36,748 bases of DNA, taken from positions 1 to 36,748 of the IMG/VR virus record IMGVR_UViG_3300009440_000019; one strand, given 5' to 3'. Below the pieces are notes generated by a model, which made no database searches, was not told where the DNA came from, and was given only the letters and a program-made list of their open reading frames with translations. A program made the translations under genes and the position numbers. Position 1 is the stretch's first letter. Every line of letters begins with the position of its first letter. This document shows positions 4,445-33,528 of the stretch, one piece after another. Origin of the DNA: a virus.

Positions 4445-7400
4445 TTAAGTCTCGCTTGAATCTTTTATTGTTATTATAATGGTTGAAGAAATATTGTTAC
4501 CACCCACTTTTCTATCGTTTTGGCCATATACAGTGAATTTAATATTAGTTCCATTTTGACTTCTACCAATTGGAGTATGCACATTAGCAACCCCATTATC
4601 ATCTAGCTGTATTGGAAAATTATAATATGACTTGCCTCCAGCAGTAATAATATCGGCTTTTGCAATTTCAATTGTTTCAGCTGCATTTGGAGAATCATCA
4701 AAAGAACCATTATTATTAAGATCAATTTCTTTTTTAATAACAATTGCCTTTTCACTCGGACTCAGCACGCCGCCATCTAAATCTTCTGTGACATCATCAG
4801 CATTAACGAGTGTATCCCATTTTAATCTAACATTAACTAGACCATCATAGTCTGAAGAATCAAAATATTGGACCTCAAAATCATTATTAGTTTGAATAAT
4901 CCCATTTGGCCGATAAACAATAAGGTTAGGATCACCACCCTCTTTAGAAGGTGACTCGAGCTCGAAGACTTCTTTTTGATTTAATTCTTCCGAAGAATCA
5001 TAACGAGGTGATGCCGGCGTATCCAAATCTATACTAAGAGACGGCGCCTTTGGAGCAGGTGGATATACTTTATACTGAACACCATTAATAATATGCCCAT
5101 TGTTTTTTAGCTCTACAACCATATCGTTAATATCAATATATTTTCTTTTTATAATATTAGTTTCTTCATTATTTCTTAGAGCTAAATATGCGTCGTTCAA
5201 CTTGAAGTTACCGGCTTTGTATACATTATAAATACTTCTAATAATATTAACAACAGTACCTTCATCCCAATTATTATTATTTAATATTAATTCTTCGATG
5301 TTTGAACATTCTTCAAATAAATTGGTCTTATCACTAACATTAATACTTTCAAAATAATTATTGGATATATCTAATACTTTTAAGTTTGTAAAATTCTTAA
5401 AAGACGGGATCGCCGTCGCGCTGCTAGTAAAGCTTCCTGATAACAATAATTTTTCTAAATTAGGTGATTTCGTAGCATCAGCATCAGCGAAAGATGTAAA
5501 TTGATTATTATTGCCCTTGATCCCTTTAAGTTTAGTGAATTCAGTTTGATTATTTGCACCTCCAAATAATTCTTTAAACCCTAGTGCTCCAGTAAATTTA
5601 TTATCATGAAAATAAAACGCTTCTAGTGCTGTACTACAATCACTGTGTAATTTAAGTGCACCACTAGCACCCCAACCTCCAGTAAATGCATTATTTGAAA
5701 TAGTTATATTTCCTAAAGACAATGTTTCGTCTTCAACATAAGTTGGATCGACGGTGCTCACACCCACATATTGATTTATTTTGAATAATGGAAATCTACC
5801 TTCAGTTATCCCTTTGCTTTCATACGCGAATCTTTTTAAATTATAAAGATTATTAAAAATAGCAGGCCCATCATCATCAGTACTTTCAAACTCTAAATTA
5901 TTCTTAAAATCGTTTTTAATTTCTGTCAAAGTATTCCGCACGGTTCGGGCATTGTCAAAAAAAATAGGATCAAAATTATAAGCAAAAAGCTCTAGTGGAT
6001 TAGCCACCTCGTTCAAGCCATCTGTCATAGAAGAAAAAACATCTAAAGGCATCGCTGACAAGTCAATTGGTTCTTCAACTTCAGGAGAGTCTTCATCGGT
6101 CGTCATAAAATCACTAAACACCAGCTCATCCACATCAGGCCACACGGCATTCCAAGGGTATAGTGTATCTAACGAATCTGCAGTAGCTATAACACTAACA
6201 GTAACAGTATTTTTTAGCTCCCATTGAACATTGGTGGCGTTATATTCAAATACAAAATCGCCGTTTGAATACGTAGTAACCTCGTGATAATTAAGGGGGC
6301 TAGGTACATCTTTTGTATACTCACCACCCGCGGCGAGAACTAGTGAGGTGGCCAATGTGAACTTAGTAACAAAAACATTATTGTTGTTTAGCATCGCGGT
6401 GCGCGCTGACGGGTAAATCTCTGACAAATAACTGCTGTTCCAGTAACCACCAAATTCAATCAACTTAAGCTTAGCGCAACCCTTAAAGGATGGCATTGGT
6501 CCGAAACAATTACCATCACGCGCGTTTATTCTCGTAAGCCTATTACAATTTAGAAACTTAAAGTTGTTATTATTATTACCAATATTATTTTTACTAGTAA
6601 AAAATTGATATCTTATATCATCAAATCTGTCACCAAGCTGCTCGCCGGTCGCCTTATTTTCAAAGGTACTATAGCCATCCATACTAGTCGCAGCAAAATA
6701 ATCAATAGAACTGTTTTTAAAATTTGGAATTCCAAGCTTAGTATCACCGATCCAAAAGTCTTTTAAGTTAGATTCGTCTGAAAGAGCGGTGCGAGCCGCA
6801 TTGTTGTAATTGTTATTGTTCCAATAACCTGGTACAGTATCGTCATAATACCCAAGATGATCACTTAGAAATCCATTATTAGTTAAGCGATAATATTTGA
6901 CTATATTAACATTATCAGCTGAACCAGCCGGATCAGGTACATGGAACGTACCTGATCCAGCTGTGTTAAATTTATTACTCTGAATTTCAAGCAGAGTCAA
7001 CTTTGGTCCTATATCAGGTGTAACGCCAGAAAACTGGTTGTTATTTACTCTTATTTCTTGTAAATCTGGAAATCTATCCGCGAACGCGCTTTTGTTAGTG
7101 CTATCAAAATTAAGAACTAAATAGTACAATGAATAACTATAGTCAATTTTAATTATGCTCGTTGGCACTAAATTTAATATTGATTCAATAGTCTTTTCAG
7201 GAGAAGCGGTTGGACTAATGAAGTTTCTATAAAAAACAAACGATTTTAAATTAGGTGCAAATTTTACTATATTAGGGTGTACACTAAATAAATTATAAGA
7301 TATATCTAATGTTTCTAACGCAGTTAGTTTAACAAATGGTAGTGCTTTTAATTTTACGTTAGAAACTGTGAGTGATTTATATTTATTAGGCGCTAAATAT

Positions 7401-8236
7401 GATTCAATAGTTCTATCTGCTTGTTGGCCTTGAAATCCTATCGCATTATCGCCAGCTCTAAACTGACCATAGCCATCCCCTTCAGTCAGTGATGTTCCAC
7501 TATTTGTTAAAATATTAAAATCTATATCCGAGTCGGTGGAGGTGACCCTAAACGTACTAGAATCTAACTTACTAAAATTTCCATCAAATTGCAATGGTAT
7601 ATTTTTCATTGCAAACGCATAATATTCACTACCATTTACATTGACTTTAATTTTATTTGTGGCGATCTCAGTGTTAGGATATATTCTTTCTGATAATGGT
7701 GTTAACAGTTTAATTGTAGACGTTATAACCTTTGCTGGATCTACGGCAAACTTACGAGAAGACGCGATTTCTACTTCAGTACCATATCCTACAAAATTAT
7801 CATTTGCATCCGTGGCATTTATTTTTGATTTTTCCCAAGATGTAACACGAGACGAACCAATTGTTGATATAACTAAATTTCCGTCACCATCAATATTTGA
7901 AAGTGTGTAGTGTTTTAACGACGTTGATGCAGTTCGACCAGATATATTTAAATTTCCTTTCAGTTCTACATCTCCAGTTATTTGAAATAAATCAGAAAGT
8001 CGACTCGCGTTCGCGAATGATTCTGACAAATACCTAGAAGTTTCATCTATAGTATTTACATCACTATTTGATAGCATCTGAAAAGAACTAGAGATTGTAC
8101 TTATATTACGCAGTGTATTAAAGTCTAAAGGATTTAACCCTAGATTCGTCAGTGATTCCTCAGCGTCAAGTGCTAATTCAGATAGTGCATTTCTAGCGGT
8201 TATACCAAAAATAGTCGGATTTTTAAAAGATGCCAT
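4445..8236 (-). CDS. Leucine-rich-repeat tail fibre / putative receptor-binding protein, 1263 aa
   Basis: Residues 1-100 look like a marine T4-like fibre N-terminus: SLTNLGLNPLDFNTLRNIST, then ITGDVELKGNLNISG. Two blocks of irregular leucine-rich repeats follow, about 290-600 and 795-1000. Clear units include LETLDISYNLF, LQEIRVNNNQFSGVTPDIG, LEAFYFHDNKFTG, LKVLDISNNYFES and IEELILNNNNW. The F-[ST]-G-x-x-P ending of some units recalls plant-type LRRs. A module at about 655-712 (FVFEY, QWEL, YPW, WPDVD) interrupts the array and recurs in the 582-aa protein. The C-terminal 200 residues are beta-rich and hold an EF-hand-like loop, DLNNNGSFDD (about 1172). LRRs form curved ligand-binding scaffolds, so adhesion to a host surface molecule is inferred. 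An exact late promoter sits 5 bases before the ATG, which is supported because the next Met is residue 54. Asn-rich (AAT) runs are frequent. Confidence 0.8.
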   Translation of the reverse strand: MASFKNPTIFGITARNALSELALDAEESLTNLGLNPLDFNTLRNISTISSSFQMLSNSDVNTIDETSRYLSESFANASRLSDLFQITGDVELKGNLNISGRTASTSLKHYTLSNIDGDGNLVISTIGSSRVTSWEKSKINATDANDNFVGYGTEVEIASSRKFAVDPAKVITSTIKLLTPLSERIYPNTEIATNKIKVNVNGSEYYAFAMKNIPLQFDGNFSKLDSSTFRVTSTDSDIDFNILTNSGTSLTEGDGYGQFRAGDNAIGFQGQQADRTIESYLAPNKYKSLTVSNVKLKALPFVKLTALETLDISYNLFSVHPNIVKFAPNLKSFVFYRNFISPTASPEKTIESILNLVPTSIIKIDYSYSLYYLVLNFDSTNKSAFADRFPDLQEIRVNNNQFSGVTPDIGPKLTLLEIQSNKFNTAGSGTFHVPDPAGSADNVNIVKYYRLTNNGFLSDHLGYYDDTVPGYWNNNNYNNAARTALSDESNLKDFWIGDTKLGIPNFKNSSIDYFAATSMDGYSTFENKATGEQLGDRFDDIRYQFFTSKNNIGNNNNNFKFLNCNRLTRINARDGNCFGPMPSFKGCAKLKLIEFGGYWNSSYLSEIYPSARTAMLNNNNVFVTKFTLATSLVLAAGGEYTKDVPSPLNYHEVTTYSNGDFVFEYNATNVQWELKNTVTVSVIATADSLDTLYPWNAVWPDVDELVFSDFMTTDEDSPEVEEPIDLSAMPLDVFSSMTDGLNEVANPLELFAYNFDPIFFDNARTVRNTLTEIKNDFKNNLEFESTDDDGPAIFNNLYNLKRFAYESKGITEGRFPLFKINQYVGVSTVDPTYVEDETLSLGNITISNNAFTGGWGASGALKLHSDCSTALEAFYFHDNKFTGALGFKELFGGANNQTEFTKLKGIKGNNNQFTSFADADATKSPNLEKLLLSGSFTSSATAIPSFKNFTNLKVLDISNNYFESINVSDKTNLFEECSNIEELILNNNNWDEGTVVNIIRSIYNVYKAGNFKLNDAYLALRNNEETNIIKRKYIDINDMVVELKNNGHIINGVQYKVYPPAPKAPSLSIDLDTPASPRYDSSEELNQKEVFELESPSKEGGDPNLIVYRPNGIIQTNNDFEVQYFDSSDYDGLVNVRLKWDTLVNADDVTEDLDGGVLSPSEKAIVIKKEIDLNNNGSFDDSPNAAETIEIAKADIITAGGKSYYNFPIQLDDNGVANVHTPIGRSQNGTNIKFTVYGQNDRKVGGNNISSTIIITIKDSSET

Positions 8237-8241
8237 AGCTT

Positions 8242-8249
8242 TATTTATA
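8242..8249 (-). promoter_or_regulatory. T4-type late promoter TATAAATA for the LRR fibre gene
   Basis: On the minus strand TATAAATA is followed by AAGCT and the ATG at 8236, a 5-base spacer. The octamer contains the TAA stop codon (8245-8247) of the upstream 1562-aa gene, so promoter and stop codon share bases. Confidence 0.8.
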
Positions 8250-11200
8250 TCTCTGCTGTATTGATACTTACCTGCATATTGTTTATTTCTTCAGATTCAT
8301 CAGCAAGATTTAGTGTTTTACCTATAACAAAATACGCAGTAGAATCTCTAAAACCCGGTTGTACTTTAATTCTATCTTCACCAAAAATACTATCTAATTG
8401 AAATTTCTTAATGCTTCTACTCGCGCTTTCTCCACCCACAAAGTAAGTTGATAATGATTTTAATCTTGTGCTGTACGTATTACTAGTAAAATTACCATCA
8501 TAATATTTAAGTTTAGATCTAAAATCTGACTTATCAAACATTCTTCTTAATCTCTTTCCAGCACTTAAATCAATTTCTAAGGAACTTAATCTATCAACAT
8601 CTTGAAATGTTTCAGACTTAATAGTAATAGCATTTACATTCGTAATAGTATCTTCATGAGTATCACCTAAAGGATAAGAAACCTTTGCATTTTCATTTAA
8701 CAAAAACGTTGGAGATGTTACGGTACGATCATCAGCATCTTCCTGTAAAATATTAATATTATTAATAACAGAGCCATCTTCCATTTTAACAACAAGATAT
8801 AATGGATATGGATTGAAACTAAATATTTTTGAATTACTCTTTTCAACTGGTACACTACTGTTTGTAAAGTTAGCACCTTCAACACCACTCCCTCCAATTG
8901 TATAAACAACTTGAACTGAAGTAAAACTAAATTTAGTCGAGCTATTTCCATCATTTCCATCCGAAGCTATTGTCTCTAATGTAGCATTCGTACCAGACAA
9001 TTTAAAAAGATAAGCAGACTGTAGTGAGCCATCATTGTCGTATGTGAAACTTAAAGCATCGGTAATAAATACAATTTTATCGTTTTCCGTTGTAAATGCT
9101 CCTTCGTTATTTAATCCAAGTTGACCGTTTACAAAGTCGACTGTTTTAATACCATTATCATCTTCAATAGCATCATTAAAACTATTATTGTCAATGATTA
9201 AATATTGTCCTTCGGTGGTGATATCTTCATTTGATATAAAATCAGGGTGTGGTGGTTCGCCCGTGTCTGGATCGATAGCGCTTACATCATATCTTGATAA
9301 AATATCATTATCTGTAAATAACGTCGCGGCTGATAATACATTAGTTAACGTATCGCCTAACTCAACATCAAAAAATCTAAGGCCTGTGAAACTCTCAACA
9401 TCCGCAACATTCAATTTTATCTTTGAGCAAACTCCACCGGTGCTAGGTACACTAGATATAAGGCTACCATTGCTCTCATAGTTGTCAGATGGTATAGGTT
9501 TTATTCTATAATCCATCTGAAATCTATTAACATTCGCCCATGTTGTTTCACGTGAAGTACCATCACTAGCTATACGTCCTGCTAATAATGCATTTCTATC
9601 AGTATAAGATATTCCTTGAAAATACCATTCAGATCCGAGGAAATCAATAGCTTTTAACGGTTGGGGGTTATTTGGATCACCATAATCAAACCCTCGTAAC
9701 TCTTCTTCAGTTGCTCCACCTGCTATTGGTTTTTTATCAGTGAATCCAATTTCAAAATTGCAACCACCTGTACTGTATTCTGGACTATGTCTTTGTGTGG
9801 GGTTTAAGAATCTTACTTCATTGTTTCTTCCACTAATTGGTGTAGCAGCTGCACCAATATGCCGCTTCCTACCAATAATTGCTGGGTGTTGATATACATA
9901 GCTGTATTCTCTAAGACCGTTTTCTTCAGATCCATCAAAATATTCACTATCAATAAACCTTGTGTCAGCAATAACAGGAAATGCAATTGCATTGACCGAT
10001 TGAGCGTGGGTTGTTACGGCTTGACGCCTGTAGTCTATTTCATTTCCAACTACAATAAGACTATTTGTACCAGGTGCAGCCCCAGTCATGCCTATCATTC
10101 CAATATTTACTTCATACTCTCTGAAAGTATTTTTAGTTTTTAATCTAACGATTGGTGTTTTAAAGTCTTCAATTGATGGAAGCTGATCACCTAGAACATC
10201 ATTTAGCGCATATCCAAATTTTGCCACGCCTGCTTCAGATGCTGCGCTAACCGCAGTTTTAAATTCTTGATATGTTTCTTTAAATGCAATCCATCGACTT
10301 AATACTGATCTATGTATAATGTGAGCATCATCGTCTTCTAATCCAAAGTAATTATCCCGATCCTGCTCGACGCTTAGATCCCAAACCTCTGCGCCGTTGA
10401 TATATTCGACGTTTGGATTATATCTAGCTGACAAACGATCTGGATCACCACCACTATCTACCGCAAGCTCGGCGATCTTAGCCTGCACGTCCATTTTTGA
10501 CAATGCTAGATATCTTATGTCGTCGTGAATTTCAATATGAAAATCTATACGCGGTGATTCCGTTAACTCTGAGTCCTCAACGGTCTCACCAACAGTGTTT
10601 GCAATTAAGCCATTATCGTATGTAAAGGCAAAACCTGGACACGCTTCACACTCAATAAAATCAAGCTGAGAAAAATCGCTTACTGAAGTGTTTAACTGTG
10701 ATGGATATACTAATTTACGATTCTCTTTTTTTATACCAAGTGAATTTTCAATATTCTTTTTAGGCTTTAAACCTATTAATGGAATTATATCATTACCTTT
10801 AACTGGCTTTTCTTCAGCTGTATAACTATATTGTCTTTTAGTACCTTCATCTCCGCCATCAATATAAACAGATGAACCATATTTAAAAACAAACTGAGGT
10901 GCTAACGATGTAGATTTATTAGCAAGGTCAATACGGTAAACCATTTTAAAGAATGGATCTTCTAAACACGGCTGATCTAATGTATTTTCAATTAGTAACG
11001 TATGCATTAGAACCCATCTTGCTTCATTATTATCAACTGGGACATATGCATAAAACTTTGCGCCCACAGCACCATACCATGAAAATTCTACTTTCCACAT
11101 GGTAACCTTTTCTACGTCTAGAATATAACCAATATCCGTAGGTTTAAGATTCTGCAATGTGTCATTATTAAATAAAGATTGTGGTATAACGGTTTCGTAG

Positions 11201-12933
11201 ATATCAGGCAAACTTTCTCCTGTAAATGGATCTAAGGACACACCACCATCTTGACCAATTGCTGGAATTAACGTTTGCTTACCAAGAATACCATTTAATT
11301 CTAAAGATTTATCTGATAATGGAATTGTAGATCTACGTACAATTTGAAAAGAGGCTCCTCGTATTCTGAACAAGTAACTATCTGTTTTATTCTGAATACC
11401 CCATTCAATTTTTCCTGTAGTGTCTTCTTTATCGATCACTGCGCGAGCACCGAAAGTAAAACCAGATACACGGCCAGGCTGATAACGAAATGCTTCTTTT
11501 GACTGTAAAATAATCGAATCTTGCGTACTTTGTCCAAAATCATAACCTGGTGCACTTACTTTTATCCAACCCTGCTGATTTAACTGTTTTAGGCTAAACA
11601 AACCAATCGGAGATGCTAAGCTCTTGCTTCCTGATGCATTATTATAAAATGAAACTGTTTCACTTGTACCATTATCTTTCCAGCCAGTAGCGTTCATCAC
11701 GTCGTAATCAGCCGCCTCAATCGCACCACTTGTTAATACACTAAACAGCGTAGAAGAAGAAATCTTAAATTTATTTAATTTAATTTTTACCCAAGTATCT
11801 GTCCATATGTCAATTAATCTAAAAGCTTCACTTTGAAAGGCTGCAGCGGCTTCTGGTGTTTCATACTCTGGATAATGTAATGTGTATATTTCAGTTGTTT
11901 CTGACGCATCGTATGTATTAAATGAATTTTTCTTTAATGTAACTTTTGATGGATCTAAAAATCTATTTTTTATATCGGCACCATAAATGCCTGGGTCTTT
12001 TTCATACGCTAAATATAGAAAGTTGCCTAACCGTACAAAGTTTAGGAATAAACTATATTGTGCATTCTGACCTCGGTTAGTTAAAGGTGTCCAAGGGAAA
12101 GAATACGGAACTGGAAACGCAGTAATTTCTAAAGCTTGCTCAGTTGTATTTTCTGTTACGCGAGTATTATAACGATTAATACCACTTTCTGTAGCTCTAT
12201 TTTCCCATGGTATATATCGTGAATACCCACTGCTGACATTTTTAAATATTTCCCAATTATCACTTTCAAATCCCAAAGTTGACACGTCAGAGAATAAACT
12301 CAATTGAGTTTCGGCTCTTGGCACACCTAAAAGAGAAGCACTCACAGAAGAACTCTCTGGAAATTGTTCTTCAACCTTAACTGTAGATCCCGCAGCTAAT
12401 ACAACTCCTGTTGCATTTGCTGATGTAATAGTATCAAGGAATGTTATATTTGTATCAGTAAATAAATCATTACCTGCAGCATCTGTTAATTTGGCAAGGG
12501 TGATTGAATCAAAAAGACTACTTTCTACTTTAACCTCTTGAGGTGTATTTCTATCAAAACCAATTAAAGATTTATTACCAACTGTATTAATGAATCTTTC
12601 AAAGACAAATTCAATCTTCGTACCAGATGCTATATCTTTTAATAATGGTTTACTTAGATAAAGCTTAACTTTTCCATTTACAATTGTAATTGCAGTAGCA
12701 GTAATAAAATTATTTAAATTTATATCTTCTAAATTATAATCGCGCTTTACTTGCGTTCCAATTTCAAAAACACTATTGTCTACACCATATACGTAATCAC
12801 CTTCTTTTAATATTGACAATAGATTTAAATCTTCACCTGTGATTAAATCTTCTTGAAATTTATTTAATGTTAATGTACTATCACCGGCACTATGTGTGCC
12901 GACGAGTGTGGTATTAAAATGATATTGTGCCAT
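8245..12933 (-). CDS. Large virion structural protein, 1562 aa (paralogue of the 1142-aa protein)
   Basis: Belongs to a group of very large tail/baseplate-associated proteins of T4-like marine phages with no assigned function. Blocks shared with the 1142-aa neighbour occur in the same order: LLGVPRAETQLSLFSDV (about 201), FRYQPGRVSGFTFG (about 482), QIVRRS (about 530), VEFSWYGAVGAKFYAYVPV (about 615), EARWVLMH (about 637), FVFKYGSSVYIDGGDEGT (about 681), and GLKPKKNIENSLG with VYPSQL (about 721-746). Residues 1-195 and roughly 760-1562 are specific to this copy. The extra N-terminal region and the insert at about 250-470 make it longer. The stop codon is overlapped by the next late promoter. 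The start at 12933 has GATAAATA 7 bases upstream. A fibre or adsorption-apparatus part is inferred; no enzyme motif is seen. Confidence 0.75.
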   Translation of the reverse strand: MAQYHFNTTLVGTHSAGDSTLTLNKFQEDLITGEDLNLLSILKEGDYVYGVDNSVFEIGTQVKRDYNLEDINLNNFITATAITIVNGKVKLYLSKPLLKDIASGTKIEFVFERFINTVGNKSLIGFDRNTPQEVKVESSLFDSITLAKLTDAAGNDLFTDTNITFLDTITSANATGVVLAAGSTVKVEEQFPESSSVSASLLGVPRAETQLSLFSDVSTLGFESDNWEIFKNVSSGYSRYIPWENRATESGINRYNTRVTENTTEQALEITAFPVPYSFPWTPLTNRGQNAQYSLFLNFVRLGNFLYLAYEKDPGIYGADIKNRFLDPSKVTLKKNSFNTYDASETTEIYTLHYPEYETPEAAAAFQSEAFRLIDIWTDTWVKIKLNKFKISSSTLFSVLTSGAIEAADYDVMNATGWKDNGTSETVSFYNNASGSKSLASPIGLFSLKQLNQQGWIKVSAPGYDFGQSTQDSIILQSKEAFRYQPGRVSGFTFGARAVIDKEDTTGKIEWGIQNKTDSYLFRIRGASFQIVRRSTIPLSDKSLELNGILGKQTLIPAIGQDGGVSLDPFTGESLPDIYETVIPQSLFNNDTLQNLKPTDIGYILDVEKVTMWKVEFSWYGAVGAKFYAYVPVDNNEARWVLMHTLLIENTLDQPCLEDPFFKMVYRIDLANKSTSLAPQFVFKYGSSVYIDGGDEGTKRQYSYTAEEKPVKGNDIIPLIGLKPKKNIENSLGIKKENRKLVYPSQLNTSVSDFSQLDFIECEACPGFAFTYDNGLIANTVGETVEDSELTESPRIDFHIEIHDDIRYLALSKMDVQAKIAELAVDSGGDPDRLSARYNPNVEYINGAEVWDLSVEQDRDNYFGLEDDDAHIIHRSVLSRWIAFKETYQEFKTAVSAASEAGVAKFGYALNDVLGDQLPSIEDFKTPIVRLKTKNTFREYEVNIGMIGMTGAAPGTNSLIVVGNEIDYRRQAVTTHAQSVNAIAFPVIADTRFIDSEYFDGSEENGLREYSYVYQHPAIIGRKRHIGAAATPISGRNNEVRFLNPTQRHSPEYSTGGCNFEIGFTDKKPIAGGATEEELRGFDYGDPNNPQPLKAIDFLGSEWYFQGISYTDRNALLAGRIASDGTSRETTWANVNRFQMDYRIKPIPSDNYESNGSLISSVPSTGGVCSKIKLNVADVESFTGLRFFDVELGDTLTNVLSAATLFTDNDILSRYDVSAIDPDTGEPPHPDFISNEDITTEGQYLIIDNNSFNDAIEDDNGIKTVDFVNGQLGLNNEGAFTTENDKIVFITDALSFTYDNDGSLQSAYLFKLSGTNATLETIASDGNDGNSSTKFSFTSVQVVYTIGGSGVEGANFTNSSVPVEKSNSKIFSFNPYPLYLVVKMEDGSVINNINILQEDADDRTVTSPTFLLNENAKVSYPLGDTHEDTITNVNAITIKSETFQDVDRLSSLEIDLSAGKRLRRMFDKSDFRSKLKYYDGNFTSNTYSTRLKSLSTYFVGGESASRSIKKFQLDSIFGEDRIKVQPGFRDSTAYFVIGKTLNLADESEEINNMQVSINTAEI

Positions 12934-12940
12934 AATGTAC

Positions 12941-12948
12941 TATTTATC
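12941..12948 (-). promoter_or_regulatory. Probable late promoter GATAAATA
   Basis: One mismatch from TATAAATA, at the first base, where marine T4-like phages are reported to be relaxed. It lies in the 64-base gap before the 1562-aa gene; the spacer GTACATT gives 7 bases to the ATG at 12933, hence a leader of about 2 bases. Nothing else convincing is seen in this gap. Confidence 0.55.
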
Positions 12949-12997
12949 GTTCTTTCCATGTGGTACCTGCGTTAACTTTTTATTTAACACTGACAGC

Positions 12998-15900
12998 TTA
13001 TTGCTCTTCCCAAGTGATGCTTGCATTAACTTGTGCTGCAGCACTAACATCCGATGATCGAATTGAGAGATATAAATTGTCTGGCAAATCAGTTAGTGGG
13101 AATGAGATATAATCTTTATTATAGTCAAAATATGAACTTAGATCAAAATATTCACTACCATTTTGTAAGAAGAACGTAGCAATCTGTGTTCCAGTGCCAG
13201 CGATAGGTCTTCCCTTAGTATTTACAATTTCAATCGAACTCAATCTTTCAATTTCACTATTTGGAATATTCACCGGCGCTGTTGCAACGCTACCATCTTC
13301 ATTATATTGCTTTGCATATAAGAAAGTTCTATTAGTCGTATCAAATGTCAATTCTTCTGTATATGTATCTAAAGAACGGAATTCATATTCAACAAGGCCA
13401 CTTCCAGAGTTAATTGGATCAACTCTTTCAACAAAGCCAAATAATGATCTTTGAGCACCAGGATTATTTACATCTAATACTCTAAACCATCCATAAACTT
13501 TATCACCGATAGCGAAATCAGTACTAAAGGTTTGATCAAGGTTTACAAATGGCTCGGTCCCCGCAGTTGTATAAGATAATCGTGTCGGTAAACCTGCAGG
13601 TGCCAATGGAATAGCAGGCCCACTTTTAATAACGAGCTCTTCACCTGTCGCTGGATAATTACTACCATCAATGAAGATATCATCAGTTTGATAAATCGCA
13701 TTCTTGACCAGTTCAAGTTTAACATTATCTGATTGCGCGCCTGTGGATGTCATACCAACAGAAAGCTTTGTAGGATACACTTGAACACGATTTCTTACTT
13801 TGTATCCTTGTGAACTCTCAATTTCAGTCTTTGAAGTCAAACCATAAATTACTGGAGATGACTTTGATATGATTTTAATATCATCTACACCCAAACTGCC
13901 ATGATCATTAAAGTCTGTATTTAAATACAGCGTTGATGTATTATTAGCAATATCTCTTTCAATAAATTCAACTCTCAAATTTACATCTGCAGGATTACTT
14001 GTAACTACCTTTGCACCCATCAAGATATCATCTGGTATTTCAACACTAGTCGTCCCCGAAAGTTCAATTGTATTAGCTGTAAGAGTGTTTTCAATAGTTA
14101 ATGTATTTAATATACCAGTCTCCGTGGAGCCGGTGTCAGCATACGATGATGACGACATTTCCGTGCTGTCTTCTGGTGCGTAATTAAACAGTCTTACTGT
14201 ACCACGGTCACCTCCATCAATATAATAAGATGAACCGTACTTAATCACGAACTCAGAGTGTGACTTACCCCCTGCGTAACTTATTCTATCTCCTAAAGGT
14301 CTACTGGTTCCACCAAGTGTTTTTTCAGTGCCTCCACCATAAACAGTGTATGTGATTGGAAGTGTAGCATTACCAAGAGACGCAACCTTTAATTGATTTG
14401 ATGCGCGAATATGATGGATTCGTACCCATCTTGCTTCATCATTACCAACTGGAACATAAGCTAAGAACAGAGCACCCACAGCACCATACCATGAGAATTC
14501 AATCTTATTCATTATGACCTTTGAGAAATCGATATCCCATGCAGACGCGTCTAATTTTTTACCGGCAACTCCCTGACCAGGATATTGAATAGTGCTTTCG
14601 CCATCTCCGCTTGGTAGTCTTACAACATCAGAATAAACATAAGATTTATTTGTAGAGCCGTCTAAGAAGTCAAAGTTGAATCTTGAGCGAGGAATTCTAT
14701 ATTCGTAAACACCATAATATTTTGGATCAACATTATGACGAATCCAATGGCGCCACGATCTTGTTTGTTGATTTGCATTAAACTCTGTGGTTCGCGTCAC
14801 TGTATCACCTATCCTTGCAAGGCTGATACATAGCTCACCATTATTGACGGCATCGATATCAGCAACAAAGCCGTTGAATTCATTTACGTCTGAACTACCA
14901 AATACTGAAGTATCAATTGCGCCTACATGATCGGCGGCATCGCCGTAAGCGACGAGATTAATATCATGCTCACGTCTATATGGAAACATAATATCTGCAT
15001 CCACTTCGTCAGCATATTCTGGGAATATAAATGGTACAGGCGTAATGATAAACTGTTTCTCTGGATCGATAGTTACGCCACTTTCCAGTACTATGTCAAC
15101 ATCACCACCGGTGCCAATTGCTTTAACAACTTTAATAGTATTACCGACAACTTCAGTGATTCGAAGTAATGAAGTATGTGCTTCATCCGGTGCCTCTGGT
15201 GCTGGATCGGCCTCAAATAATGCATTGCCAAGGTCTGTTGTATTGTATCTTACAATCTGATCTTTTTCAAGACCGTCAACGTTGTTTAATGTAATTGTAA
15301 GAACACCATTTGATAAAGTCGGAGTGATTTGAATCTTGTGCTTAGTTTCCTTCTTTAACAAAGATGGATCATACATTGCTGCATGTGTCATTAGAAGACC
15401 ATCTCTTACAATCGCTAAATCACCAGCATAGTGCGCAATAAGCGTTCGTGGGGCGGCGGTTAACTCGCTTTCTAACAAATCAAACGCGGCGTCCTGTGAT
15501 ATAAACACATCAGTAGTAGTTGTCCCGACAACTAGAGAGGTTACAATTGTGTTTGGCGCAATGAGATAGTTACTATTATCATCGGCTGCAGTAATATCAC
15601 TTAATGACATACCAATTTGAGGTGCACCAGCGCCATTGATTGCGTTGATTGTAATTTTATTACCTTCAACGGTGTTCAAACTTAATTCAAAGGAAGCGCC
15701 GTCTGATTTACCCACAACACCGTAATCTTCTTTTTGATGAGTAGTCTCTGTACCATATGTGGTACCTCTATATTTAATTAGAGCATGTGTTCTTCTTACA
15801 ACACAGAATTGATCTCCTTTACCAGTATCTCTAGTTTCCCAATAGTAACCATCAAACTTATCGTAAATACCATATTTTCTAATTGCTGCATTACGATTAT

Positions 15901-16426
15901 CCACCACTGGTGCACCAGGTGTTTTTGAAGTTTTAACACCGAATGTTGCAGCAGAAACACGACCAGGTTGATATCTAAAGAATCTTTTAGATGTTAAGAC
16001 AGCTGTTTTATTTGGAGCTGCTTCTAATAACGCACCAGCTTCTTCTGGCACGTGAGACAGACCATATCCAAAGTTTTTAGCGAGGTCGCCGGCGCCACCA
16101 GCACCAAAGCCGTTTAACTCATATGGGCTACTTGCAACATCTAAGTCTGTTTTTTCAGCTGGTAAAAATGTCCATTCACTAGGATCAACATCATATGTGT
16201 TAACGTCAGCAAAAATCCCCAAGGCAACTTCAGAGCGTGGAATACCAAGAAGAGATAATGCAACCTCAGATTGAATCTTGTTTTGTTCTTCAACAGGTAT
16301 TGCTGCCTGGTCAGACGCTAAGACGACGGGCAACGACTTGGCTGCTGAAGCTTGACCTCTAGGTATCGGAGCGGTACGCCCGATTGTTACGATATTATTC
16401 GCTCTATTAATTGTTTTTGTTGCCAT
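12998..16426 (-). CDS. Large virion structural protein, 1142 aa (paralogue of the 1562-aa protein)
   Basis: Shares ordered blocks with the downstream 1562-aa protein: LLGIPRSEVALGIFADV (about 59), FRYQPGRVSAATFG (about 150), CVVRRTHALI (about 208), IEFSWYGAVGALFLAYVPV (about 642), EARWVRIHH (about 664), FVIKYGSSYYIDGGDRGT (about 726), then GLTSKTEIESSQG with VYPTKL. VRDGLLMTHAAMYDPSLLKK (about 340) is another segment typical of this group in marine T4-like phages. The protein ends VNASITWEEQ after beta-rich sequence. Its ATG overlaps the preceding stop codon by one base (TAATG), which implies translational coupling; an AAGGAA lies about 14 bases upstream, rather far for a ribosome site. Likely exposed tail or fibre-network component; biochemical role unknown. 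Confidence 0.75.
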   Translation of the reverse strand: MATKTINRANNIVTIGRTAPIPRGQASAAKSLPVVLASDQAAIPVEEQNKIQSEVALSLLGIPRSEVALGIFADVNTYDVDPSEWTFLPAEKTDLDVASSPYELNGFGAGGAGDLAKNFGYGLSHVPEEAGALLEAAPNKTAVLTSKRFFRYQPGRVSAATFGVKTSKTPGAPVVDNRNAAIRKYGIYDKFDGYYWETRDTGKGDQFCVVRRTHALIKYRGTTYGTETTHQKEDYGVVGKSDGASFELSLNTVEGNKITINAINGAGAPQIGMSLSDITAADDNSNYLIAPNTIVTSLVVGTTTTDVFISQDAAFDLLESELTAAPRTLIAHYAGDLAIVRDGLLMTHAAMYDPSLLKKETKHKIQITPTLSNGVLTITLNNVDGLEKDQIVRYNTTDLGNALFEADPAPEAPDEAHTSLLRITEVVGNTIKVVKAIGTGGDVDIVLESGVTIDPEKQFIITPVPFIFPEYADEVDADIMFPYRREHDINLVAYGDAADHVGAIDTSVFGSSDVNEFNGFVADIDAVNNGELCISLARIGDTVTRTTEFNANQQTRSWRHWIRHNVDPKYYGVYEYRIPRSRFNFDFLDGSTNKSYVYSDVVRLPSGDGESTIQYPGQGVAGKKLDASAWDIDFSKVIMNKIEFSWYGAVGALFLAYVPVGNDEARWVRIHHIRASNQLKVASLGNATLPITYTVYGGGTEKTLGGTSRPLGDRISYAGGKSHSEFVIKYGSSYYIDGGDRGTVRLFNYAPEDSTEMSSSSYADTGSTETGILNTLTIENTLTANTIELSGTTSVEIPDDILMGAKVVTSNPADVNLRVEFIERDIANNTSTLYLNTDFNDHGSLGVDDIKIISKSSPVIYGLTSKTEIESSQGYKVRNRVQVYPTKLSVGMTSTGAQSDNVKLELVKNAIYQTDDIFIDGSNYPATGEELVIKSGPAIPLAPAGLPTRLSYTTAGTEPFVNLDQTFSTDFAIGDKVYGWFRVLDVNNPGAQRSLFGFVERVDPINSGSGLVEYEFRSLDTYTEELTFDTTNRTFLYAKQYNEDGSVATAPVNIPNSEIERLSSIEIVNTKGRPIAGTGTQIATFFLQNGSEYFDLSSYFDYNKDYISFPLTDLPDNLYLSIRSSDVSAAAQVNASITWEEQ

Positions 16427-32529: not shown

Positions 32530-33528
32530 CTAATTAAGGAAGATATTTGGAGCAGTAGTTGTTTGATTGCCGCCATATTTCTCTGTACATGTTCCAGTTT
32601 TAGTTTCTTGATAAAGATATTTGGTAATCACTTCTTTTTGATGTTCACCGATCTCAATATCTTCGTAACCTCCAACTCTTTTTATTATATTACCATTAAC
32701 TTGAATATTCCAATCACCTTTAATGTATGTGGAGCAGTTGGCATCAACTGTGAGATTGCAATTACCAATCACATTTACATTCTGGTTCTTAACAACAACT
32801 TGAAAATCATTTCCAACAATAACACTTGTCTCATCTCCAGTTGGAGTGATCTCTCTATACGTACCAGTTCTATGAATGGTTGAGATTCTTTCTTGACCTG
32901 GTGTCACATCGAATTCAACAATGTGTGAATCTTCTAAAGTATCTGTCGCTTTCTCATAAGCAATGACATGATTCTTAGGATATTGTGGTTTAATAACTGA
33001 ATCAATATCTGGGAATACCCAATTGTTTTCATGAGCAGCATTTGCTGTAGGAACAACATCATGTGTCTCTCTTAACTCTTTCTTCTTCGTATAAGAGAAT
33101 GCTTTCTTATAGGCTTCATCAATACTCTTAGCAGCTAGTGGAGTCTCAGCAATATCAAGTTTTGTGTTCACTGGATATCTTTCATCTGGATCAGTAAACC
33201 CTACGTTATAATCTACTGCTGAAGATATCGATGGTATACTGCCAAGAATAATGGGATCTTGTGCATTAGGTCCATCACGAAAGAACCCTACAACCCAAGA
33301 GCCATGAAGCAGGCCTGTTGCCGATTGACCAAGTTCAGTCATTGAAGCTGACGTAACTGGAAGCATTGGTGTCGCCCAAGGTAATTCTTCTGTCGGAATC
33401 TCTATCTTATCACTATTGTGATAACCATAACATCTTACGCGTACTCTGCCCATTTCTTTTGGATCATGAATGTCTTCAATGACACCTGTAAACCAAGCAA
33501 ATGTTTGTCCTATAAAATTTTCAATCAT
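32530..33528 (-). CDS. gp5: Baseplate hub / central spike protein gp5, 332 aa, no lysozyme domain
   Basis: Residues 1 to about 105 form the gp5 OB-fold: FTGVIEDIHDPKEMGRVRVR, LPWATPMLPVTSAS, LLHGSWVVGFFRDG and DPIILGSIPS. The C-terminal third has the repeating V-x-G-x(n)-V strands of the triple-stranded spike helix (VVVKNQNVNVIGNCNLTVDA, then YIKGDWNIQVNGNIIKRVGG). T4 gp5 (575 aa) carries a lysozyme between these parts; here about 130 residues of linker-like sequence with no lysozyme motif take its place. The protein would thus pierce the membrane mechanically, with peptidoglycan cleavage done elsewhere. The ATG overlaps the gp27 stop by four bases (ATGA), fitting the gp27-gp5 complex. Confidence 0.92.
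   Translation of the reverse strand: MIENFIGQTFAWFTGVIEDIHDPKEMGRVRVRCYGYHNSDKIEIPTEELPWATPMLPVTSASMTELGQSATGLLHGSWVVGFFRDGPNAQDPIILGSIPSISSAVDYNVGFTDPDERYPVNTKLDIAETPLAAKSIDEAYKKAFSYTKKKELRETHDVVPTANAAHENNWVFPDIDSVIKPQYPKNHVIAYEKATDTLEDSHIVEFDVTPGQERISTIHRTGTYREITPTGDETSVIVGNDFQVVVKNQNVNVIGNCNLTVDANCSTYIKGDWNIQVNGNIIKRVGGYEDIEIGEHQKEVITKYLYQETKTGTCTEKYGGNQTTTAPNIFLN

Follow-up and report, generated by a model that had tools for sequence, protein, structure and literature searches.

A conserved leucine-rich-repeat protein family at a fixed place in phage tail operons, with a probable host-binding or baseplate role

Leucine-rich-repeat (LRR) solenoids are a standard recognition scaffold in eukaryotic immunity and in bacterial adhesins, and the LRR scaffolds of InlA, VLR and TLRs bind glycans and proteins. 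To our knowledge, no internalin-like, Leptospira, plant-type or VLR LRR ectodomain occurs on a phage tail. Single LRR proteins encoded by phages are already known, and what is new here is a tail adhesion or baseplate protein built on an LRR scaffold. ORF287 of the Vibrio jumbo phage vB_VhaM_pir03 is an LRR protein of the BspA type (PMC7765460), and Leptospira phages carry canonical LRR proteins. These are phage-encoded LRRs like the protein described below; however, no sequence link to it was found in either, nor evidence of a tail module of its type. The cyanophage S-TIM5, which carries the counterpart discussed below, has been described as being without the structural module common to cyanophages and T4-like phages (PMC4928673), and its virion proteins have been identified (PMC10665884).

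We analyzed a 36.7-kb virus record (IMGVR_UViG_3300009440_000019, positions 1 to 36,748), referred to here as the window. P0001 is encoded on the minus strand at 4445..8236 with an ATG start and comprises 1263 amino acids. A sequence-only reading had marked exactly this open reading frame without naming a strand. The assignment of P0001 as an LRR tail-module protein draws on the ORF, Pfam, a shuffle test and AlphaFold2. Its N-terminal domain (residues 1 to 280, 7397..8236, minus strand), delimited by family conservation, consists of helices at residues 25 to 84 followed by β-structure, with conserved blocks around R130-W134, TEIATN and AMKNIPLxF. It had been described as a fibre-type N-terminus, a label that the searches do not establish: residues 1 to 280 have no match in Pfam or PHROGs and form a domain found only in this family, with no recognized fibre anchor. 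LRR block 1 follows (residues 281 to 600, 6437..7396, minus strand; about 11 solenoid strands by AlphaFold2, Foldseek and VIA-align, Z 16.8). An insertion between the blocks (residues 601 to 798, 5843..6436, minus strand) is poorly conserved by alignment occupancy and mostly of low pLDDT. LRR block 2 (residues 799 to 1010, 5207..5842, minus strand) has seven strands and ends in a conserved LRR plus a helical cap (residues 992 to 1007), as judged from Pfam LRR_8, AlphaFold2 and the family consensus. The C-terminal region (residues 1011 to 1263, 4448..5206, minus strand) holds the Ca-loop-like motif DLNNNGSFDD (residues 1172 to 1181, window 4694-4723), and no homologues of this region were found in the family alignment.

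The repeats are evident in the sequence of P0001. The strict LRR core motif, [LIVFM]xx[LIVFM]x[LIVFM]xxNx[LIVFM], occurs seven times, compared with a mean of 0.76 and a maximum of 4 in 2000 shuffles; the maximum in a second shuffle set (n = 1000) was 5, and the other proteins of the window have 0 or 1 such motifs each. Tandem LxxLxLxxN core repeats of ~20 to 30 residues, one criterion for the LRR superfamily, thus occur in P0001 above chance. By hand, 16 LRR units could be cut, nine at residues 287 to 607 and seven at residues 799 to 1001, which together with the predicted strands bears out the two blocks first placed at about 290-600 and 795-1000. Pfam LRR_8 matched residues 925 to 989 (E = 3.5e-5), which is under the curated cut-off for P0001 alone. 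Furthermore, a profile built solely on the block 1 units ranked the homologues of S-TIM54 (3.8e-5) and locus L066 (7.3e-5) above every non-LRR protein of the set. The F-S-G-x-x-P turn of plant-type LRRs had also been noted in the sequence. The literal unit occurs once (residues 402 to 407), whereas the whole family has the form G-x-[IVMF]-P-x-F as its consensus. The plant-specific LRR class is defined by LxGxIPxxLxx in most repeats; GxIPxF is present in several P0001 repeats and in the family consensus but absent from some repeats.

P0001 is predicted to fold as an LRR solenoid. Structure prediction had been proposed as a check, with a model lacking a solenoid as the adverse outcome, and a curved β-strand solenoid was predicted in both blocks. 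The AlphaFold2 model of residues 1 to 1060, computed with a 32-sequence alignment, showed pLDDT of ~80 to 95 across much of residues 280 to 430 and 840 to 1010, with solenoid strands at 288, 309, 332, 363, 394, 415, 448, 493, 521, 569 and 592 in block 1 and at 802, 843, 873, 905, 929, 954 and 982 in block 2. Residues 1 to 170 and 600 to 700 were of low confidence. The mean pLDDT was 62.9 and the pTM 0.58, so the model does not establish how the parts lie relative to one another. The solenoid had already appeared in a model of residues 255 to 660 with a single homologue, whose mean was 51.5 and whose block means reached 87. For this model, the PDB matches listed by Foldseek were LRR proteins, and the rows listed by VIA-align were again LRR proteins, with Z of 16.0 to 16.8 over 270 to 311 residues. 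All PDB matches listed for the longer model were LRR proteins as well, among them plant LRR receptors, SHOC2 and TLRs, with a best E of 2.9e-9.

The gene order of the window places P0001 near the end of a tail operon. In the order of transcription, genes matching PHROGs families for a tail tube cap, a baseplate wedge (gp53-like), a tail protein, a hub (gp5-like), a gp25-like and a gp6-like protein and further wedge families are followed by a 1981-residue DUF4815 protein and then by P0005, P0002, P0001 and P0003. The T4 gene numbers (gp48, gp53, gp5, gp25 and gp6) are our reading of the PHROGs names and the gene order. The module as a whole is of the T4-like baseplate and fibre type. The closest named gp6 to that of the window is from Methylophilales phage Melnitz (36% identical). 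The gp5-like hub (window 32530-33528) has 332 residues versus 851 to 932 in the matched hub/lysozyme PHROGs and seems to be without a lysozyme domain. P0005 (12998..16426, minus strand, 1142 residues) belongs to phrog_1645 and has a full-length homologue in S-TIM5. P0002 (8245..12933, minus strand, 1562 residues) is also assigned to phrog_1645, a virion structural protein, and lies directly upstream of the LRR gene across nearly the whole family. P0001 is the penultimate tail gene on this strand. The next gene encodes P0003 (2693..4441, minus strand, 582 residues), related by sequence comparison to the ORF downstream of the LRR gene in loci L078-L083; by the same means, the convergent P0004 (309..2690, plus strand, 793 residues) has homologues in L071 (4e-16) and 14 other loci. 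The sequence-only reading had named P0001 a tail fibre. This holds insofar as it is encoded in a tail/baseplate operon and is likely a tail-module virion protein; a fibre anchor was not recognized, and receptor binding is something we only infer.

Direct searches with P0001 of 50,697 phage records, of IMG/VR in two scans and of genome contigs all ended without a match, because single-sequence patterns were too narrow, and it was the neighbor P0005 that revealed the family. A scan of IMG/VR with a P0005 alignment was used, taking the best 80 of 327 loci; the family counts are lower bounds, and some searches may omit very near records. An LRR homologue followed the P0005-P0002 pair in 59 of 60 informative loci, directly in 55 and after one small ORF in 4; the remaining locus (L074) ends with the available stretch. 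A minus-strand gene followed the LRR gene in 32 of 32 loci. The homologue search suggested by the sequence-only reading thus yielded dozens of viral contigs with a P0001 relative at the same place. Of the 60 family sequences, 42 were left after incomplete members and near-duplicates (70% identity) had been taken out. Complete members range from 610 to 1641 residues, and Pfam LRR_8 (E ≤ 0.01) was found in 42 of the 44 members scanned, with a best value of 1.3e-22. The family is defined by the N-terminal domain, a capped LRR solenoid and the position after the phrog_1645 pair, and P0001 has all three. Fragments are common among the 37 family contigs, 20 of which carry a gp6-like gene. The homologue in IMGVR_UViG_3300044299_003627 (G006), a gene cut by the contig end, is 38% identical to P0001 in the N-terminal part and 33% in the LRR part. 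A Pfam LRR_8 scan over gp6 relatives gave nothing convincing and was insensitive, missing the G006 homologue; an IMG/VR scan with P0003 did not recover the LRR family, and tblastn with two family members added no named phage. Judging from the named relatives (marine cyanophages and Melnitz), the other relatives may be marine or aquatic.

Among named phages, the counterparts are in S-TIM5 (gp118, YP_007006107.1) and S-TIM54, both annotated as virion structural proteins. The gene order in both is that of the window: homologues of P0005 and P0002, the LRR protein, a gene for ~650 residues and a convergent gene. LRR_1 exceeded its cut-off in both counterparts and LRR_4 did so in S-TIM54. The N-terminus of S-TIM5 gp118 aligned with the P0001 N-terminal domain with a profile score of 46.3 (maximum 22.8 in 100 column-shuffled decoys), that of S-TIM54 could likewise be aligned by profile, and intermediate contigs matched P0001-type and S-TIM-type profiles alike. 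The counterparts resemble P0001 in gene position, LRRs, a distantly related N-terminal domain and a structural assignment; they differ in having little direct identity (BLASTP E 0.004) and another repeat arrangement. Their hosts are Synechococcus. Their gp6-like genes gave a weaker match than those of the family contigs, and no relationship was shown between P0003 or P0004 and the S-TIM5 genes at equivalent positions. S-TIM5 (NC_019516, 85770-93368) shares the P0005-P0002-LRR module with window 8245-16426, in a phage having T4-like baseplate genes. A family of tail LRR proteins would link S-TIM5 to phages with T4-type baseplates via a common tail module, and gp118 is a testable handle on the family in a cultured phage.

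Variation within the family was somewhat higher in the LRR part. The mean identity over 106 non-independent pairs was 0.72 for the N-terminus versus 0.64 for the LRR part; P0003 and P0004 positions vary as much as the latter (0.63). The change rate was 0.33 at exposed LRR-strand positions, 0.24 in the rest of the LRR part and 0.175 in the N-terminus. Exposed non-concave positions (x2 and x10) were as variable as the concave ones, so the variation singles out no binding face, and the test for directed diversification of the concave face was not specific. In three members (L107, L111 and L125), the LRR protein contains a C-type-lectin-like domain (Lcl_C), placed after the N-terminal domain and before the C-terminal LRR cap, and the L125 protein also contains DUF5013. 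No whole-gene replacement of the LRR gene was seen across the informative loci. The sequence-only reading had called the LRR surface diversifiable, and no support was found for a special mechanism: a reverse transcriptase was found in one of 50 family records, with the variable repeats of that record in other genes, and the LRR part is somewhat more variable than the N-terminus. Most of the records, including the window, are fragments, and a reverse transcriptase may lie elsewhere in those genomes. Among the assigned genes of the window, a genome fragment, there is no reverse transcriptase. A diversity-generating retroelement is located in L148 (G067:137000-156000, at 11505-15378), about 8 to 11 kb past the LRR gene of a 282-kb phage contig. 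It includes a reverse transcriptase ORF (14320-15378), a template repeat near 14105-14276 and two lectin-like ORFs (11505-12485 and 12802-13992), both with variable repeats at the end.

LRR scaffolds had been called rare in phage fibres, and rarity among named phages was supported by the lack of a P0001 match in the phage records, the few records with canonical LRRs and the lack of a significant match among viral structures. A library of viral structures gave nothing at E ≤ 0.001 with the P0001 model, the best hit (E 0.017) being a Pithovirus LRR protein. A canonical LRR consensus hit 50 phage records, of which most are Listeria records without annotation, alongside two Leptospira phages, Tenacibaculum phage PTm1 and one 462-kb phage; this consensus misses S-TIM5 and therefore gauges the rarity of canonical LRRs only. 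Many of the OR84xxxx records named Listeria phage LM 4-11-1 / 4-14-1 are unannotated and carry canonical LRRs, which may be host internalin DNA. The open literature that we searched yielded no description of a tail protein with LRRs, and an earlier mention in subscription papers is possible.

We consider it rather likely that P0001 is a baseplate-attached adhesin in a myovirus tail family, mostly with T4-type baseplates, with its LRR surface toward the host. The N-terminal domain would attach P0001 to the periphery of the baseplate or to its neighbors P0005 or P0002, and the predicted solenoid of about 18 LRRs, with its conserved C-terminal cap, would project outward. The solenoid face and the inserted domains could then meet a host surface protein or glycan during adsorption. 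An adhesin role is suggested by an LRR part that is less conserved than the N-terminus, the greater change at exposed strand positions and the three Lcl_C inserts, and also by the binding of glycans or proteins by LRR scaffolds in InlA, VLR and TLRs, which are among the structural matches of P0001. Chance as the source of the LRR pattern, through an Asn/Leu-rich sequence, would accord with the irregular repeats and with Pfam scores under the curated cut-offs for P0001 alone. However, it is already contradicted, and practically dismissed, by the shuffle test, family Pfam matches down to 1.3e-22, the AlphaFold2 solenoid and LRR structural matches at Z of about 16 to 17.

Many receptor-binding tips are exchanged, whereas the LRR gene stays where it is, and a structural role fits this point equally. 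P0001 might be a baseplate or fibre-hinge scaffold for P0002, P0005 and P0003, with other proteins recognizing the host. In line with this, the gene strictly keeps its place beside P0005-P0002 in 59 of 60 loci, with no swap for an unrelated scaffold, the excess of variation is mild, and the phage of L100 directs diversity-generating elements at separate lectin-like proteins. However, the wide length range (610 to 1641 residues) and the lectin-like inserts would be unusual for a pure scaffold, and the penultimate tail gene is the usual place of an adhesin, which leaves a scaffold role rather unlikely, though worth serious consideration. A role outside the virion, as an assembly chaperone or as a binder of host proteins in the infected cell, is quite improbable: LRR proteins are often intracellular, and intracellular SDS22 and SHOC2 are among the listed PDB matches, but the gene lies within the structural operon in every lineage seen, and in S-TIM5 and S-TIM54 the counterparts carry the annotation of virion structural protein. 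P0001 is likely located in the virion, and its family is probably a widespread component, as yet unnamed, of host binding or of the baseplate. Such a conserved tail family would provide a new receptor-recognition scaffold and a marker for a poorly known myovirus group.

Taking the adhesin reading further, we tentatively propose, with somewhat more doubt than confidence, that a large uncultured myovirus lineage and S-TIM5-type cyanophages recognize their hosts by LRR solenoids at one fixed place of the tail module, elaborated by lectin-like inserts, as a phage counterpart of internalins and lamprey VLRs. T4-like long and short tail fibres and receptor-binding proteins with Lcl_C or C-type-lectin domains share with P0001 the baseplate/fibre region and the likely role, but they are trimeric β-structures or C-type-lectin folds rather than LRR solenoids. 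The ectodomains of InlA, LSS01692 of Leptospira, MIK2/BRI1 and VLR share with it the LRR solenoid; those of the plant type have the G-x-I-P turn, and such ectodomains serve to bind proteins or glycans. They are, however, cellular receptors or adhesins with about 10 to 18% identity to P0001 in structural alignments.
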